Shown piece after piece: positions 1 to 19,479 of a stretch of DNA of 37,683 bases; position 1 is the first letter of the stretch, and the number at the start of each line of letters is the position of its first letter. This DNA is from an uncultured Elusimicrobiales bacterium (lineage in GTDB: Bacteria; Elusimicrobiota; Elusimicrobia; Elusimicrobiales; Elusimicrobiaceae): assembly GCA_944324685.1 (NCBI GenBank), contig CALUXG010000010.1, forward strand, positions 1 through 37,683, given 5' to 3'. A program made the position numbers and the translations under genes. A model generated the notes under the pieces. The model was not told where the DNA came from. It did not search any database and saw only the letters and a program-made list of their open reading frames with translations.

Positions 1-9
1 GAACCTCAT
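1..9 (-). CDS. Possible first codons of a gene running off the left edge
   Basis: On the minus strand an ATG at 9-7 (encoding M-R-F before the window ends) is preceded by AGGGAGG at 14-20, four bases upstream, which is a plausible ribosome binding site. A good promoter lies about 95 bases further upstream (108-135). Only three codons are visible, so nothing can be said about the product. The spacing between the Shine-Dalgarno and the ATG is slightly short, so the real start could lie outside the window. Confidence 0.3.
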
Positions 10-107
10 GCAACCTCCCTAGACTTACATATATGTTTAACGGCCTATTTTGACCGCTGACAAACAAACTCGGGAAAAGGGTCTTAAAACCCCTCCTCCA
101 CTCGGAA

Positions 108-135
108 AATGTAGCAAAAAAAAAAAATAAGTCAA
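108..135 (-). promoter_or_regulatory. Sigma70-type promoter with a T12 spacer
   Basis: Read on the minus strand: TTGACT at 135-130, a 16-base spacer at 129-114 that contains an uninterrupted run of twelve T (127-116), and TACATT at 113-108. Both hexamers are close to consensus. The homopolymer inside the spacer means that slippage by one or two bases would directly change the -35/-10 distance. Confidence 0.5.
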
Positions 136-202
136 GCTCCGTGCATTTTATAAACCCCTGCCAAATAAAAACTTATATGAAGAAGTATGCCGTGAGCGTA
201 TT

Positions 203-338
203 TTGCAAGCAAGAAAGCAAGAAAGTGAGCAAATAAGTAAGCAATAGGAAGGAAGGAAGGAAGGAAGGAAGGAAGGAAGGAAGGAAAAAATAAAATAAAT
301 AAATAACAGGAAGGAAGTAAACACATAAGCAAGCAAAG
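203..338. repeat. Tetranucleotide repeat tract with (GGAA)10 core
   Basis: The core at 247-286 is ten perfect copies of GGAA. It is flanked on the left by degenerate AAGC/AAGT-type units (203-246) and on the right by AAAT units, two more GGAA-like units and AAGC units (287-338). Frames across it give only repetitive Pro-Ser-Phe-Leu peptides and no plausible gene. It lies between the terminator of the PAS gene and the promoter at 108-135. Confidence 0.85.
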
Positions 339-365: not shown

Positions 366-401
366 AAAAGAAAAAACGCGGAGCGGAAATTCCGCCCCGC
401 G
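366..401 (-). terminator. Intrinsic terminator of the PAS-repeat gene
   Basis: A GC-rich stem (377-386 paired with 392-401) has its only non-Watson-Crick pair at 382/396, which is a U-G wobble in the minus-strand RNA. It is followed on that strand by U6, one C and U5 (376-365). It sits 20 bases after the stop codon at 421. Confidence 0.85.
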
Positions 402-420
402 CACATTATACGTCGGCAAA

Positions 421-3400
421 TTATTTCTTTTTCCGTACGCCAATCAGTCCGTATCCCTCCACGGCGCCTTTAATGTCTTTCATCAAAAACACATCCCACG
501 CCGTGGGAATGAACTTGCCGTGTTCATCGGCAACGTCCAACGTAACTTGGAAAGCGTTGCCGGAAGCGTTCTTGGCGCTGACGGCAAACATATCGCGGCT
601 GCTGTCTGCGCGGCGGATAAACTCGTCAAAAAACTCCCGTTTATCCACCGTTTGAATGCGACGGCCGGTAAAAGCCAAAAACACATTATTGGCATAGCGG
701 ACGCGGTATTGCAAATCCAGCACCACGGCCGGCAAGTCCACATATTCCAGCGTGTGAATAAAACTCTGAGAAGTCTCCCCCAGCGTTTTACTGGCTTCGC
801 GCAGTTCAATGCGCAAACTCAAAATACGCGACATAATGCCTATTAATTCTTCCGCGCCTTCTTCAAAGTGGGCTTTAGGTGCGCGCGCGGCAAAACACAA
901 AGCGCCCGCCACCTTGCCGCCGACATAAAGCGGCGCGGCAATCAGCGAGCCGAAGTTTTTCTCTTTGTGAATACAGCGCTTGCAGTTTGTATTGCCTAAA
1001 TCGGCAAACACCACCACATTATCGTCGCGCACGTCAAAGAGGCATTCCTCCACGGGAAACACCATATATCGTTCAATGGTAAACGGATTGGGAGTGGTGT
1101 AAATGACCGTCATTTCATCCGGATTGCTCTCGCGGAAACGCATGACAATGCCTACATCGGAATGGAAGACCTGTTTGCCAAACTCTAAGATTTTATCCAC
1201 CTGTTCAGTGATGGTGGATTTATTTTCATTGCTGATGTCGTAAAGCTGACGTATATGCTGTTCGTGTACGCGCCGATCGGTAACGTCGCGCAGCCAAAGC
1301 ACCAGTTCTTCCTGTCCGTTTATCGGCGTACAAACCGCATCAAAATAATGACGCTTGCCTCCGTATTCCCAATCAAATTCAAAGGTTGTATTGATACCCA
1401 CGCTGGAGGCTTCTTTAAGCGCAAAAATTATTTTGGATGCAGCGTCTTCCGGCCAGTATTGTGCCGGTTTTTTATCCAAGAACAACGCTTGCGCCTGCTC
1501 CTGCCCCAAGTATGAAAGATTGGAATTCACTTCCAGTACCCTGCCGTCTATATCCGTCTTCAAATACAATCCGGGCAGAGACTGGCGCACGCTGCGCAGC
1601 TCCAGCGCTTCGCGTGAAGTGTGCGACAGCCGTTCCAAAAGCGCCGACAAATCCGTTATTAACACCAACACCGTATTTTTTCCCGGGATATCCAGCTCGG
1701 TTAACGTAACGGAAGTTTCTATACGCCGGCCGTCTTTGGTAAATAAAGGCGCCCCGAAAGAAGTGCGGTTTTTTTCCGCCAAAACGTGGGCGGCATGCTG
1801 CAAAAGCTGTTGTATTTCTTCTCGGTTTTTACCGTCGGCAGAAATAAACAGATTTTCAAAAGGCATGGCGCCAAGCTCATTATGGCTGTAGCCGATCAGC
1901 TGGCTTAAAAATTTATTGCTTTGCTCCACACGGCCGAAACGTCCATCCTCATAATGGACCGACAAAACGGCCCCGTCCGTTACTTCCATTAAGGCGTTTA
2001 ACTGTGCGGAACGTTCCTGCAATATCTGCATAATCTGTTTTTGCAAAGCCATATTGCGGAAGATAAACACATAGTTGCCGTTCATCATGCGCATGGCGCT
2101 CACGCGCACGGGAGAAGTTTCCAGCCCGCTGGCCAAATAAATACTGTATTCGCGGTTTTCCAGCTCTCCCCGTTTGGACAAGGTTTTCAAGTCCTCCTCC
2201 ACCAAGGCCGTGCTGTCGGGACTGAAAAGACTTAACAGCCCCTGCCCGCGCAATTCATCAGGCTTATGCTGGCATAAAGAGCAGAACATTTCATTGCAAG
2301 AAGCTATTTTGAATTTGGGAGAACAAATGACATACGGCTCCGTATTGGGCAGCAATACCGTGGCCGGAGAAGGAGGCAGAGGCTTTTTGGACTCGGCCGC
2401 CGGCGCTGACGGCGGTTTGGGAGCGGAGGAACCGCCCCGCTCGCGGCGGTCAAGGGTTACCAAATAGTCTGCTTCCACCGTGCCGTCTTGGCGGTCACGC
2501 CGGTTAAAAGGTTCCAAAGAGACAAACAGACGTATTTTCCCTTTCCCGTGAATGCGCCCGGGGAATTTGGCCGCCGCTTTGGCAAAATCAAATACATATT
2601 CCATACGCGCGCTTTCGCCGCGGCGCAATTTGCGGCGCACGTCCAACGTCAAGGCGGGGCGAATATACACGTTGCGGTAAAAATTGCGGTCATGTTCTTC
2701 AAAATGAAACAATTCCCGCGCCGCTTTGTTCATCACGTTGATATATCCTTTGTGGTTAAGAATGAAAGCGGGCAGCAAGCCGCGTTCAAATACGTTTTTG
2801 AATTTCTCCCGCTCGCCGCGCACTTCCCGCATGGTTTTGTTAACCGCGGTAACGTCCCGCAGGAAAACGATGACAATGCGCCGGCCCAAATATTTGGAAG
2901 CCATCGCCGCAAATTCCACTTCGGCCTGTACGCCTGATTTTTTGACCAAATGCAGCTGCACCGGATCGGAAGCCCCTTCCAAACCGTTAATGACGCTTTC
3001 GTACTTGTCGCGCGCAAAAATTTGATGGTCCGCCGCCACAAAATCCAACAACGGACGGCGCATGATTTCTTCCGCCGCGTCGTATCCCAGCACTTTGCTG
3101 GCTGCTCGGTTGGCGTAAATGATTTTGTAATCCTCCAAAATCAAAATGCCTTCCCGTGCATTCTCCACCAGCAGAGAGTTCTTTTCTCCCGCTTCGCGGA
3201 TTTGTTTTTCCATTTTGGTCTTGGCGGTAATGTCTTCGGATACGTTCAACAAATAATCCGGTGTGCCGTCCGGTTTATACAGCGGCGTTTTGACTGTATG
3301 CATGATCTTGACGCCGTCGTTGGGCGTGGAAATCAGCTCCTGAGGAATATTCAATTCACGCCGGCTCTCAAACACTTTTTGATCCGATTCGCGCACAAAC

Positions 3401-5796
3401 TCGGCCTGTTCTTTCGTGATATCCGTACGGTAATTTTCTTTACCGATGACGTCCCGCGCCGCCACGCCGAACAAATCTTCACTGCGTTTATTCCAGACGA
3501 CATATTCCCCGCTGTAACGTTTTACCGACAAAGCAATGGGCAAATTGTCTACCACGTTTTGCAGGAAATTTTTGGAATCGCGTATTTCGTTTTCCTGTTG
3601 TTTACGCTGGGTAATGTCTTCGGCTATCGTCAACACCATCAGAGGCTGGCCGGCGGCGTCAAACACCGGCGCCTTGACCAAATGCAGCAGCACTTTGCGT
3701 CCGTCTTGGCGGATGTACTCTTCCTCCGGCACGTCCATGATTTCCCCACGTTTGAAAATTTCTTCCTCACGCAAATTATAGCCGCTGGTATCGTTTGGCA
3801 TGGTTAATTCGCCGGGGAACATTCTGTCGGCCGCTTTATTGTAAAAGCAGACTTGATGTTTCACGTCATAGGCATAGATTGCGACGGGCGCATTGTCCAA
3901 AATGCTTTGCTGCAGATTTTGAGCCTCCGCCAGCTTGCGCGCTTGTTCCCGCTTGTCAGTAATGTCTTCAGCAATGGAAAGCATCATGGCGGGGTTGCCT
4001 TCTTTGTCATAGACAGGCACTTTGATCAAATGAAGCAGCACCGTTTTTCCGTCGCGGCGCAAGTATTGTTCTTCCGGAATGTCCACAATATTGCCATTGC
4101 GGAACATTTCTCTTTCGCGGTCTCCGTAAAAGTCGTTTTCTTCTTTATAAATGCTTTCGTTGGGGAACAACTCAAGCGCTTTTTTATTAACGAAGGAAAT
4201 GGCCATATCCACGCCGCGCGCGTAAATGGCCAGCGGTGCATTGTCCAAAATGGCTTGCTGGAAGTTTTTGGCCTCTACCAATTTGCGTTCCTGCTCTTTT
4301 TTCTCCGTAACGTCTTCCACCATGGTAATGACGAACTCCGGATTACCCTCCACGTCCGATACGGGGATTTTAATCATATGCAGCAAACGTTTATTGCCCG
4401 TCGCCGTTACATAAGCTTCTTCGGCTATATCCAACGGTTTGCCCGACTCAAGCACTTGCGTTTCTCTGTCCAAATAACCGCTAACTTGTTCTTTTGTTTC
4501 ATGCGGCAGAGAGCCTTGCTCGTCAAAGCTGGCGTCTTCCGCTCCAAAAATTTCTTCGCACTTTTTGTTGCGCAGCAACATTTTGCCGTTTTTGGTGCGC
4601 GCATATAGACCGATAGGCGCATTGTCCACAATGGCGCTTAAAAAACTGTTGGCCGTAACGATTTCCCTTTCCTGTTCGCGTTTTTTGGTAACGTCTTCCA
4701 CAATGCTCAGCACCAAAGGCTCCGGACCGGCATGGCGCAGAGGCACTTTAATCATGTGGATTATTTTTTCACGTCCCTCTCTGTCCACATAAATCTCATC
4801 GGGATAATCCCGCATTTTTCCTTCTTCTAAAATTTTTCTTTCCCGCTCCGCGTATCCGCGCACGGTGGCGGCATCCTGCTTGGGATGGGGAGCGTTGACG
4901 CACTTTGGTTCCGTTTCGGACAGCACTTCTTGGCTTTGCTTGTTAAAAAAAGTCATGACCCCGTCTATCGTACGCGTGTAAATACCCAGAGGCACATTGT
5001 CCAGAATAGCCTGCAGCAAATTGCGCGTCTGCAGCAAATCTTCCTCCTGTGCGCGCCGGACGGTAATATCTTCGTACACAGTCAATATGGTTTGCAGCTC
5101 TCCGGCGGCGTCAAAGGCAGGCACTTTTGTTACGGACAGCGTAACTTCGCGGCCGCGGTGATTTTTGAAACTCATCTGGCTGCCGCCGCGGTTTTGCTTT
5201 TTTTCTTTGACTTCTTTGTCTAAGATTTCCAAAGCGCCGCTCAACTGCTGCGGCAGAGACTGCAGCAGCTTATGTCCGACGGCCTGCGCACTCTGTACGC
5301 CAAAAAGTTTTTCCGCCCTTTCATTCCATACCAAACACTTGCCTCGTCGGTCCTGTACGGTAAGCGCAAAAGGATAATTGTCCACAATAGACTTAAAGAA
5401 AACTTTCTCTTTGACGGCCTGCAAATATTGCGGGGCCGCGTCAAAGCTCAGCAGCGTATAAGGCGTATCCGGCAAACGCGACGCTCCGACGCTCATAAAA
5501 ACGGTTTCCACCTCTTTGGTTACCATTTCTTTGAGCAAACCGTTGCCCTGTCCTTGCTGCAGCAATTGGTTTACGTCTTGGATGGTCAGGCCGTATTTGG
5601 AAATATTGCTCCCTTTCAGCTCATCTGCGGAAAAACCGGACACGGACGCCGTACGGGTATTGGCAAACAAAATATCTCCGTTTTCATCTATCAGACAGGC
5701 CGCACTGGGCAGCAGCTCAAGCAAAGCTTGCAATTGGGTAAAAAAATCCGGCGTATTATTATTTTTAGAGAAGAAAGAAAGAATTTTATTGGCCAT
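421..5796 (-). CDS. Giant multi-PAS/GAF sensor protein without an output domain
   Basis: A 1791-residue protein built from about thirteen PAS units plus one GAF domain (about 1515-1665). PAS units begin near residues 20, 133, 258, 384, 511, 628, 744, 873, 998, 1150, 1262, 1397 and 1675. Most have the typical N-cap (LDNAP, VDNLP) and end in EDIT/EDVT plus a charged helix, the usual PAS-PAC linker. Units 3 to 6 resemble each other closely, suggesting internal duplication. A Pro-rich linker spans about 1118-1148. No histidine kinase, GGDEF, EAL, HD-GYP, methyl-accepting or DNA-binding domain follows; the protein ends seven residues after a PAS strand. No membrane segment or signal peptide is visible, so it is probably cytoplasmic. 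The ATG at 5796 is chosen because GAGGA lies four bases upstream; an in-frame extension to 5931 has no such site. The role as a sensory or scaffold protein is inferred from the domains. Confidence 0.9.
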   Translation of the reverse strand: MANKILSFFSKNNNTPDFFTQLQALLELLPSAACLIDENGDILFANTRTASVSGFSADELKGSNISKYGLTIQDVNQLLQQGQGNGLLKEMVTKEVETVFMSVGASRLPDTPYTLLSFDAAPQYLQAVKEKVFFKSIVDNYPFALTVQDRRGKCLVWNERAEKLFGVQSAQAVGHKLLQSLPQQLSGALEILDKEVKEKKQNRGGSQMSFKNHRGREVTLSVTKVPAFDAAGELQTILTVYEDITVRRAQEEDLLQTRNLLQAILDNVPLGIYTRTIDGVMTFFNKQSQEVLSETEPKCVNAPHPKQDAATVRGYAERERKILEEGKMRDYPDEIYVDREGREKIIHMIKVPLRHAGPEPLVLSIVEDVTKKREQEREIVTANSFLSAIVDNAPIGLYARTKNGKMLLRNKKCEEIFGAEDASFDEQGSLPHETKEQVSGYLDRETQVLESGKPLDIAEEAYVTATGNKRLLHMIKIPVSDVEGNPEFVITMVEDVTEKKEQERKLVEAKNFQQAILDNAPLAIYARGVDMAISFVNKKALELFPNESIYKEENDFYGDREREMFRNGNIVDIPEEQYLRRDGKTVLLHLIKVPVYDKEGNPAMMLSIAEDITDKREQARKLAEAQNLQQSILDNAPVAIYAYDVKHQVCFYNKAADRMFPGELTMPNDTSGYNLREEEIFKRGEIMDVPEEEYIRQDGRKVLLHLVKAPVFDAAGQPLMVLTIAEDITQRKQQENEIRDSKNFLQNVVDNLPIALSVKRYSGEYVVWNKRSEDLFGVAARDVIGKENYRTDITKEQAEFVRESDQKVFESRRELNIPQELISTPNDGVKIMHTVKTPLYKPDGTPDYLLNVSEDITAKTKMEKQIREAGEKNSLLVENAREGILILEDYKIIYANRAASKVLGYDAAEEIMRRPLLDFVAADHQIFARDKYESVINGLEGASDPVQLHLVKKSGVQAEVEFAAMASKYLGRRIVIVFLRDVTAVNKTMREVRGEREKFKNVFERGLLPAFILNHKGYINVMNKAARELFHFEEHDRNFYRNVYIRPALTLDVRRKLRRGESARMEYVFDFAKAAAKFPGRIHGKGKIRLFVSLEPFNRRDRQDGTVEADYLVTLDRRERGGSSAPKPPSAPAAESKKPLPPSPATVLLPNTEPYVICSPKFKIASCNEMFCSLCQHKPDELRGQGLLSLFSPDSTALVEEDLKTLSKRGELENREYSIYLASGLETSPVRVSAMRMMNGNYVFIFRNMALQKQIMQILQERSAQLNALMEVTDGAVLSVHYEDGRFGRVEQSNKFLSQLIGYSHNELGAMPFENLFISADGKNREEIQQLLQHAAHVLAEKNRTSFGAPLFTKDGRRIETSVTLTELDIPGKNTVLVLITDLSALLERLSHTSREALELRSVRQSLPGLYLKTDIDGRVLEVNSNLSYLGQEQAQALFLDKKPAQYWPEDAASKIIFALKEASSVGINTTFEFDWEYGGKRHYFDAVCTPINGQEELVLWLRDVTDRRVHEQHIRQLYDISNENKSTITEQVDKILEFGKQVFHSDVGIVMRFRESNPDEMTVIYTTPNPFTIERYMVFPVEECLFDVRDDNVVVFADLGNTNCKRCIHKEKNFGSLIAAPLYVGGKVAGALCFAARAPKAHFEEGAEELIGIMSRILSLRIELREASKTLGETSQSFIHTLEYVDLPAVVLDLQYRVRYANNVFLAFTGRRIQTVDKREFFDEFIRRADSSRDMFAVSAKNASGNAFQVTLDVADEHGKFIPTAWDVFLMKDIKGAVEGYGLIGVRKKK

Positions 5797-5818
5797 ATTG
5801 TCCTCGCGCACGCGTAAT

Positions 5819-5836
5819 CGGCCCGCTATAGGGCCG
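5819..5836 (-). other. Hairpin in the PAS-gene leader
   Basis: A perfect six-base-pair stem (CGGCCC/GGGCCG) with a six-base loop lies 22 bases upstream of the ATG at 5796. There is no U-run, so it is not a terminator. It may stabilise the leader or be incidental. Confidence 0.35.
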
Positions 5837-5909
5837 TACTGTTTATATGCTAATAAATTCCCGCCGCTCTTGCAAGGGAGAAAAAAGAGTTTGCGCGGCA
5901 GGCAGGAGC

Positions 5910-6488
5910 TCAGCGCACAGCATGACGGCAAGTGATTTGAGATCCCACGAAAAACCGCTGATTGCGTTTATACACGCAAGACACCAGCGTAGAGCTATGT
6001 TCAGCGTCCGCGGCAGGCAAATAACAATCTATGCGCTTGCAGTCATACGTTTCTCGGCATTGGGGAAAAGAGGATGAAGGAAAGTCGACCAAATACCAAG
6101 AAAATTCCAAATTATAATTTAACGCTTTCAGAAAAGAAGCACAATCGGGCGGCATATTGGCCGGACATTGAGGTTGGGGGCTGACGTTTTGGCGTTCCAC
6201 CCGCTGCTGCAGCAGAGTATATTCCTGCGTATTGGCTGGGCGGCCCTGCACCATATACACGTCAAAACAGGAAAAGCCATCCTCCTCTTTGCGTTTGCAT
6301 TGGTATTGGGTCATGATGTCTCCGTCAGGGCAGGTATCTTTAACCTGTTCCGCCTCCGTGCTTAAATAATAAGGCGTTTCCCGCTCGGTGCGGACGCGGT
6401 AACGGGGCGGTTTGCCGGCCGTCTGTTCTACGGACGCACAACCGAAAAACAACAAACAAAACAGGCAAAAAATGGGACGAATTTTCAT
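5910..6488 (-). CDS. Cys-rich lipoprotein of unknown function
   Basis: A 192-residue protein that starts with a classical lipoprotein signal: a basic N-terminus, a hydrophobic stretch and the lipobox LFFGC, with C17 as the lipidated residue. The mature part is polar and holds ten further cysteines, including C53, C64, C74, C108, C116 and a cluster at 144-155, which suggests disulfides in an exported protein. The ATG at 6488 is chosen because it places the lipobox correctly; an in-frame start at 6587 would overlap the end of the pilin gene and bury the signal. No good ribosome binding site is seen. It lies 77 bases after the pilin-like gene on the same strand and is probably co-transcribed with it. 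I do not recognise the family. The gap to the PAS gene downstream is 113 bases. Confidence 0.75.
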   Translation of the reverse strand: MKIRPIFCLFCLLFFGCASVEQTAGKPPRYRVRTERETPYYLSTEAEQVKDTCPDGDIMTQYQCKRKEEDGFSCFDVYMVQGRPANTQEYTLLQQRVERQNVSPQPQCPANMPPDCASFLKALNYNLEFSWYLVDFPSSSFPQCRETYDCKRIDCYLPAADAEHSSTLVSCVYKRNQRFFVGSQITCRHAVR

Positions 6489-6565: not shown

Positions 6566-7132
6566 TTACAAGTTTACGCGGTAGCATTCGCGTTTGTCAT
6601 GTTGGCATTGAACCGGTTGGCGGGAAGAAGCGATGCTTAAACAAAAACTGCGGTCTTTATCCGTCATAGAAGGATCGTCCGATGTACAAAAAAAATCGCC
6701 TGTTTTTTCATCAGGCGTATAGCCGCGGCCAAAAGTTACCAAAGACAAGCGGAAATTATATCCCATTTTTTTATATTGATAAAATGCATGGCCCATACTT
6801 TGAATAATTGTATCTTCTTCATTAACAAACAAAGTGCCGTCGCACCAACTGTCTCTGTTTGAGCAAGAACCATAACCTTCTCCAGAACAATAAAAACGAT
6901 ATTCGCGCGTTCCGTAAGCCTGCAAGTAACTGCTTAAATCCATGCATTTGGTATTGCCTGTATTCATAACATAAATCTCCCGTCCCTCTTTAATTTGCTT
7001 AAACACGGGAAGGAGGCGCATAATACGCGCTTTTGTTACGGCTTTTTGATACTGAGGCAGCGCAATGGCCGCCAAAATGCCAATAATAAGCACCACTACT
7101 AACAATTCTACAAGCGTAAAACCTTTTCTCAT
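6566..7132 (-). CDS. Type IV pilin-like / pseudopilin protein
   Basis: A 188-residue protein beginning with a class III signal peptide: a short MRKG leader followed by FTLVELLVVVLIIGILAAIA, the invariant Glu at position +5 of the mature chain and a hydrophobic helix about 20 residues long. Prepilin peptidase would cut after the Gly. The C-terminal part (about residues 30-188) is the globular head, rich in Cys (CxxH/CYR near the end), which may form disulfide loops. The ATG at 7132 is supported by AGGAAG six bases upstream; an in-frame upstream extension to 7282 would bury the leader and is rejected. No pilus assembly gene is nearby, so this is an orphan pilin gene. Whether it forms a pilus, a type II secretion pseudopilus or a DNA-uptake fibre cannot be told from sequence alone. 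Confidence 0.92.
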   Translation of the reverse strand: MRKGFTLVELLVVVLIIGILAAIALPQYQKAVTKARIMRLLPVFKQIKEGREIYVMNTGNTKCMDLSSYLQAYGTREYRFYCSGEGYGSCSNRDSWCDGTLFVNEEDTIIQSMGHAFYQYKKMGYNFRLSLVTFGRGYTPDEKTGDFFCTSDDPSMTDKDRSFCLSIASSRQPVQCQHDKRECYRVNL

Positions 7133-7197: not shown

Positions 7198-7228
7198 CGT
7201 ATAGGGTATCAAAAAAAAAACGAGTCAA
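7198..7228 (-). promoter_or_regulatory. Candidate pilin promoter with T10 spacer
   Basis: On the minus strand TTGACT (7228-7223) is followed by a spacer containing ten T in a row (7220-7211) and then TATACG (7203-7198), a 19-base spacer. The -35 is good and the -10 and spacing are weak. The arrangement resembles that at 108-135. Confidence 0.35.
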
Positions 7229-19357: not shown

Positions 19358-19444
19358 GTTATACCAACAAGTTTTAGATATATAGACCTTTTGCAGTTCT
19401 GCATGCAGCAATAAAAATAAAACCAAAAGTATGTTATAAATACT

Positions 19445-19479
19445 CTGCCGTTTCTGCCGTTTCTGCCGTTTCTGCCGTT
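19445..19479. repeat. Tandem nine-base repeat (CTGCCGTTT)4
   Basis: Four head-to-tail copies of CTGCCGTTT, the last ending in TTA. The core CTGCCGTTA also occurs twice at 7325-7333 and 7361-7369. Confidence 0.85.

Follow-up and report, generated by a model that had tools for sequence, protein, structure and literature searches.

The DNA analysed here comprises the first 37,683 nucleotides (nt) of contig CALUXG010000010.1 (C10; positions 1 to 37,683, forward strand) from an uncultured Elusimicrobiales bacterium of the family Elusimicrobiaceae (assembly GCA_944324685.1; 1.40 Mb, 49 contigs, 95% complete), and this whole stretch is referred to as the window. Its left end is the start of the contig. 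There, an initial annotation had placed a minus-strand promoter at 108-135 with a twelve-base homopolymer inside a 16-base spacer, which was borne out by direct reading of the sequence: from 135 to 108 the minus strand reads TTGACT-TA-T12-GC-TACATT. The gene that had been proposed just outside the window was also found to begin here, as an ATG with a ribosome-binding site about 90 nt downstream of the promoter opens a gene extending beyond the window. The elements of this site are as follows.

7 to 19, minus strand: ribosome-binding site GGGAGG (19-14) and ATG (9-7) of the gene running off the contig (sequence read)
108 to 116, minus strand: -10 hexamer TACATT (113-108) with extended -10 TGC (116-114) (sequence read)
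116 to 127, minus strand: T12 homopolymer, A12 on the plus strand, filling the spacer TA-T12-GC (sequence read)
130 to 135, minus strand: -35 hexamer TTGACT (sequence read; sigma-70-type scan)

The spacer between the two hexamers (129-114) is 16 nt long and 12 of these are T (TTGACT-TATTTTTTTTTTTTGC-TACATT). Judged by this sequence, the homopolymer would occupy the position between -35 and -10 that characterizes switches of the vlp and porA type. The promoter match taken alone is no better than chance and uninformative, with three sites in 3 kb in a sigma-70-type scan compared with 3.4 +/- 1.9 in shuffled sequences; the promoter is counted as real because it belongs to a promoter family. The length of the T12 run is far from chance. 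Among the A or T runs of the window, 94 have length 6, 23 have length 7 and 3 have length 8, none has length 9, and the only runs longer than 8 are this T12 and the T10 at 7211-7220, the tract of a second window promoter; both lie in promoters of one type. The gene to the left of the window probably encodes a pilin-like or another surface protein. A name for it was sought with positions 1-200 as the query, which matched no contig across 1-43 except C10 itself.

The promoter family and its genes

A site-similarity search located similar stretches on five other contigs of the genome (C40, C30, C8, C15 and C33). Those on C30 and C15 precede genes with a type IV pilin N-terminus, before which the GCTACA class of -10 element is also found, and the stretch on C33, which has a broken T9 spacer, precedes an apparent secreted protein. 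A second member of the family, together with its gene, is present in the window.

6566 to 7132, minus strand: pilin-like gene of 188 amino acids with the N_methyl motif, following the 7228-7203 promoter (open reading frame and motif search)
7203 to 7228, minus strand: second promoter of the family, TTGACT-CG-T10-GA-TACCCT, with a 14-nt spacer (sequence read)

The pattern TTGnnn-T8+-TAnnnT defined 55 sites in the DNA fetched from this genome after one duplicate context was dropped; a T17 tract (L059) that lacks a clear TAnnnT is not part of this count. The sites begin with TTGA in 39 cases, and their T runs range from 8 to 15 with a mode at T12 (28/55). Spacers range from 10 to 19 nt and measure 16 nt at 32 sites, 17-18 nt at nine, 15 nt or less at 13 (one of them, L047 with a spacer of 10, being an artefact of the pattern) and 19 nt at one.

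The pilin methylation motif PF07963 has 76 matches in the genome, all marked as reaching the curated cut-off. A T run of at least 8 was found within 300 nt upstream of 44 of the 65 pilin genes counted with a simple motif in the DNA fetched by then, and the contexts of these runs are mostly TTGAnTnG-T-GATACCCT, GATAAATTTTG or GCTACA. Long tracts are placed almost exclusively before such genes: for 53 of the 59 listed tracts of at least 10 T, a PF07963 gene in the same orientation follows within 700 nt (52 genes in all). Contig ends account for five of the remaining six tracts, the window site included, and any gene behind them would lie beyond the assembled sequence; two of these five are DNA already counted, by 127-base contig overlaps. 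The sixth (C47:530) has a similar promoter and leader and no pilin motif in the following 526 nt. By this association the family would appear to drive surface-exposed proteins. A Markov model gave an expectation of 209 runs of at least 10 T; it overestimates long runs and was not used as a test, and since its figure exceeds the count, the number of tracts is no excess and only their placement is notable.

The family extends to relatives. The genus, for which an excerpt of PMC8035907 gives a description, includes Candidatus Avelusimicrobium excrementipullorum (G001; a 1,235-base stretch is identical to the DWVB record). The pattern TTGANTNG-T8+-GATA matches 39 of 61 genus genomes, the window's own included, and its reversed control none of the 61. 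A looser pattern matches 62 of 340 genomes of the phylum: 51 of 66 of the same genus (1 to 97 matches each), four of 18 of g5, another genus of that family, at 11 to 29 matches per genome, and seven further genomes that have a single match apiece; its reversed control gave five matches in four of the 340. A chance promoter was rejected on the two reversed controls, compared with up to 97 matches per genus genome. Pilin-like genes occur in all 66 genus genomes, with 22 to at least 105 in each. Three genomes with at least 105 of them (G011, G004 and G059) have no poly-T motif match. A search of 84,980 species genomes returned at least 114 matching stretches and, among the matches listed, the titles inspected all belong to Elusimicrobi- metagenome-assembled genomes (MAGs) or read 'uncultured bacterium', which does not by itself make the motif specific to this group. 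An artefact of one assembly pipeline was rejected, as MAGs with the tract family bear contig names typical of several different assemblers.

For relatives, 114 named loci were chosen for the motif, amounting to 785 kb of related DNA. This DNA contains 139 T runs of at least 9 at the motif and six elsewhere. Downstream genes were analyzed at 80 of the 114 loci, where 101 tracts have the motif and 85 of these have at least 400 nt downstream; a pilin motif follows within 700 nt after 75 of these 85, compared with seven of 53 other tracts of at least 8 T. Judged by eye, nine of the remaining ten motif tracts precede proteins with apparent signal peptides, many of them cysteine-rich, and for the tenth (L240) the best candidate is a dehydrogenase-like frame. 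The protein behind a T11 tract in G020 matches OMP_b-brl and Opacity, and a Pfam search gave no match for two of the secreted proteins. A similar secreted-protein start, MK...VLGL...C, follows T12 in relatives (L196, L355) and the broken T9 spacer on contig C33 of the window's genome at about 25,195 (L012).

Tract length and the case for a promoter switch

The length of the tract differs between some near-identical copies. The first case involves the window site itself, part of which is duplicated.

44 to 171, minus strand: segment duplicated at positions 1-127 of C40, identical except for T12 here and T11 there; divergence at 172 (sequence comparison)

The T12 of the window and the T11 of C40 are surrounded by 116 identical flanking bases. 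In the second case one locus in two MAGs has T9 (L220) and T12 (L278), with 532 + 566 identical flanking bases; apart from the tract there is no gap in the 4,702 aligned bases, which contain 225 substitutions, nearly all of them in the far part, and another T12 tract, 820 bases from this one, has the same length in both. The third case is a pair of tandem paralogues (L245) with T12 and T10 and 683 identical flanking bases. These are secreted-protein genes on the minus strand of CALUXC010000004.1 at about 4,250 and 5,515, with identical promoter, leader and N-terminal half and differing C-terminal halves. In addition, four of 14 identical-flank pairs within genome G340 differ in length, where identity was taken as 8 nt before and 50 after the tract and 57 of 62 rows were used.

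The ends of the contigs were also compared, for 49 starts and 46 of the 49 ends. Exactly 127 nt are shared by 21 pairs (seven common prefixes and 14 overlaps), which suggests that the assembly k was probably 127; four further pairs share other lengths, with trivial matches of two contigs excluded. From the start of the window contig to the end of its A12 the distance is exactly 127 nt, and it is again 127 nt from the start of C40 to the point where C40 diverges from the window. This spacing is as if the 11-T form of the site were also among the reads, which is suggestive only. As proof of tract polymorphism it was rejected, because just the window tip among the nine tips bearing such a tract shows it and other graph causes are possible.

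Many promoters, in G340 as well as in the window's genome (e.g. L072, L079 and L081), have a 12-bp palindrome right after the T tract that overlaps the -10 element, in the class GATAAATTTTG...CAAAATTTATC. The nine G340 tracts of lengths other than T12 are all members of the palindrome class (9/41 vs 0/16; 9/44 vs 0/18 with five more rows classed by eye, Fisher p 0.049).

Taken together, we consider it somewhat probable that the genome holds a genome-wide set of slippage-prone promoter spacers that tune pilin-like and other surface genes. The set consists of about 55 related sigma-70-type promoters built from TTGnnn (mostly TTGA), usually 2 nt, T12 and GnTAnnnT with an extended -10. Most of them precede separately placed type IV pilin-like genes and, in relatives, also genes for secreted or outer-membrane proteins. 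Slipped-strand mispairing in the T run would alter the distance between -35 and -10, since the spacer is nearly all T homopolymer and slippage shifts that distance. Sigma-70 polymerase uses 16-18 bp between the two elements. Promoters with T12 to T14 would provide 16-18 bp and are predicted to be active, and those with T11 or less, at 15 bp or below, to be progressively weak or silent. By this spacing rule 41 of the 55 promoters are predicted to be permissive, including the one at the window end, and the T10 pilin promoter of the window is not. If length alters transcription in this way and switching is reversible and frequent, each gene, presumably also that to the left of the window, would vary its expression independently, resulting in combinatorial surface variation. 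A contingency system of the Mycoplasma vlp type is the simplest way to explain why a slip-prone run stays pure only at these places, before dozens of variable surface genes. For the poly-T spacer, the phase-variable switch proposed in the initial annotation gains strong indirect support from the approximately 55 sibling sites, the pilin-like genes behind most long tracts and the length differences between some near-identical copies, whereas the part that invoked the GGAA repeat is unsupported.

Several observations weigh against this reading. No tract of at least 10 T lies within 700 nt of 24 of the 76 pilin-like genes, and the first motif is absent from 22 of 61 genus genomes, the looser one from 15 of 66. 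Interrupted T-rich spacers, or no tract at all, were seen before several pilin genes of relatives, among them one conserved type, in a survey whose loci were picked by best pilin score and are not a fair sample. Ten of the 14 identical-flank pairs in G340 are of equal length. L278 is a 4.9-kb contig that may be misbinned, in which case the comparison with L220 is one between two assemblies of one lineage, and an assembly consensus may misstate homopolymer length by one. Moreover, T12 accounts for 106 of 131 listed tracts of 11 genomes (the window's own and G006 excluded) and for 53 of 62 tracts in G340 (48/57 in the rows of the pair comparison); the two counts overlap, as G340 appears to be G053 of the 131-tract list. 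Such dominance points to stabilising selection more than to free switching. Where genes share the conserved pilin start MNNKKGFTLIELL (L329, L332, L336, L338 and others), the spacer is a pure T12 in a single genome but T-rich and interrupted in others.

The dominance of T12, which also extends to the 28 of 55 sites in the window's genome, favours the chief and serious rival, a fixed promoter architecture. Here a rigid T-tract spacer of set length, or a regulator or sigma factor reading T12, would co-ordinate a pilin and surface regulon, T12 would be important to the shape of the promoter, and the variants would be deleterious slips. T12 stays constant while the -35 flank and the -10 element diverge between species, and two 13-T tracts in the window's genome lack the following G, whereby the spacing is preserved. 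However, T8 to T15 variants persist before pilin genes, and the interrupted T-rich spacers at some pilin genes in relatives, if those promoters are functional as assumed, indicate that purity is perhaps not required; it also seems costly, as runs of that length are rare elsewhere. Pilin genes with no tract at all, in the survey of best-scoring pilin loci, also speak against a fixed design, which strikes us as possible though rather unlikely.

Considerably less probable is that the tract is the passenger of a dispersing cassette, in which pilin genes were spread or converted together with a conserved 5' block of promoter, leader and N-terminus and T12 was copied along. Similar upstream and N-terminal sequences do occur in many copies, the tandem genes of L245 share the promoter and N-terminal half only, and 127-base ends are shared between contigs carrying pilin promoters. 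The setting of the window site bears on this explanation as well. Upstream of the promoter lies a PAS/GAF gene that is present in 60 of 61 genomes searched.

376 to 402, minus strand: terminator-like hairpin closing the upstream PAS/GAF gene (computed scan)
421 to 5931, minus strand: neighbouring gene for a PAS/GAF protein of 1836 amino acids (open reading frame and domain search)

The region following this gene was compared at 29 orthologous loci besides the window's own, two of them with less than 700 nt of DNA downstream. At the closest eleven (L157-L167) no pilin motif, T tract of at least 8 or GGAA array was found in about 1.5 kb after the PAS gene, which is followed by an FKBP-like gene by our reading of the sequence, with no database search. 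L168 has a pilin of its own with TTGACA-CG-T12-GCTACAAT after the PAS gene, L169 has one with T10 on the far side of the FKBP-like gene, and L173-L183 (11/11) have a pilin gene directly after the PAS gene with no tract in front. The window site thus looks like an insertion relative to its closest relatives, which lack a pilin there, as a cassette would predict. However, T12 is common to promoter classes that are otherwise diverged (GATACCCT, GATAAATT, GCTACAAT and GGTACACT), so recent copying alone is no sufficient explanation.

The remaining feature of the site is the ten-copy tetranucleotide tract reported about 110 bases upstream of the promoter, which Tandem Repeats Finder recovered as AGGA x 10.2 with 100% matches.

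246 to 286, no strand assigned: (GGAA)10 array within low-complexity sequence of 4-base periodicity at about 200-338 (Tandem Repeats Finder)

The array is real and non-random, yet isolated. Ten perfect copies at about 110 nt from the -35 element would suit an upstream switch like that of nadA, for which an array common to the regulated gene across strains or relatives would be expected; no such sharing was found here, as exact (GGAA)4 occurs once in the genome, at this site, no tetranucleotide array of four copies was found downstream of the PAS gene at the 29 related loci (including the two with short downstream DNA), and none of at least four perfect copies besides this one was found at the promoter-family loci examined. 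The array also sits in low-complexity DNA outside and upstream of the duplicated promoter segment (44-171). It was rejected as part of the promoter system, and a nadA-like role is highly improbable. Around it, the four-base-periodic stretch at 200-338 contains GCAA, GAAA, GTAA, GGAA and AAAT units. Elsewhere in the window, at 19444-19479, lie four perfect copies of the 9-base unit TCTGCCGTT, where no open reading frame of at least 80 amino acids is listed.

Relation to known systems and biological meaning

In Neisseria porA and opc and in Bordetella fim, a homopolymer between -35 and -10 alters their spacing and hence the expression of surface or fimbrial genes. Those tracts consist of G/C and occur at one to a few loci; the promoters described here share the homopolymer in the spacer, but have T tracts at about 55 sites in this genome. 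The vlp sets of Mycoplasma hold a handful of genes. According to an excerpt of PMC10502178, vlp genes form a surface-protein gene family with their own promoter regions, in which insertions and deletions in an A homopolymer accompany ON/OFF transcription. Both systems comprise a family of surface genes, each with its own homopolymer-bearing promoter region. Unlike vlp, the set in this unrelated phylum is known from sequence alone, has many more loci with pilin-like genes scattered over the genome, and uses T instead of A with a strong T12 mode.

The genome paper on Elusimicrobium minutum (2009) reportedly lists about 60 pilE-like genes of unknown function; like the organism studied here, this related gut member of the Elusimicrobiaceae would be rich in pilin-like genes. 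We know of no role for the many pilin-like genes of this group. In Endomicrobium, pilins are discussed in connection with DNA uptake in an excerpt of PMC8809381. A literature search on Elusimicrobium or Elusimicrob- with pilins or phase variation, judged by titles and abstract openings, gave no paper describing these promoters.

If the proposed promoter switch is true, it would to our knowledge be the first surface-variation system of such a kind in the phylum, and its scale would be unusual for a 1.4-Mb genome. Extended to the family, we regard it as an evenly balanced proposition that the set of homopolymer-spacer contingency promoters in gut Elusimicrobiaceae is the largest known, with tens of independent T12 switches per genome acting on pilin-like and other surface genes; the enormous number of surface states that these may generate in each lineage would explain why 22 to more than 100 pilin-like genes are retained in small genomes. 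The shared slip-prone promoter makes the role of these genes testable, as the length of the tract should predict expression.
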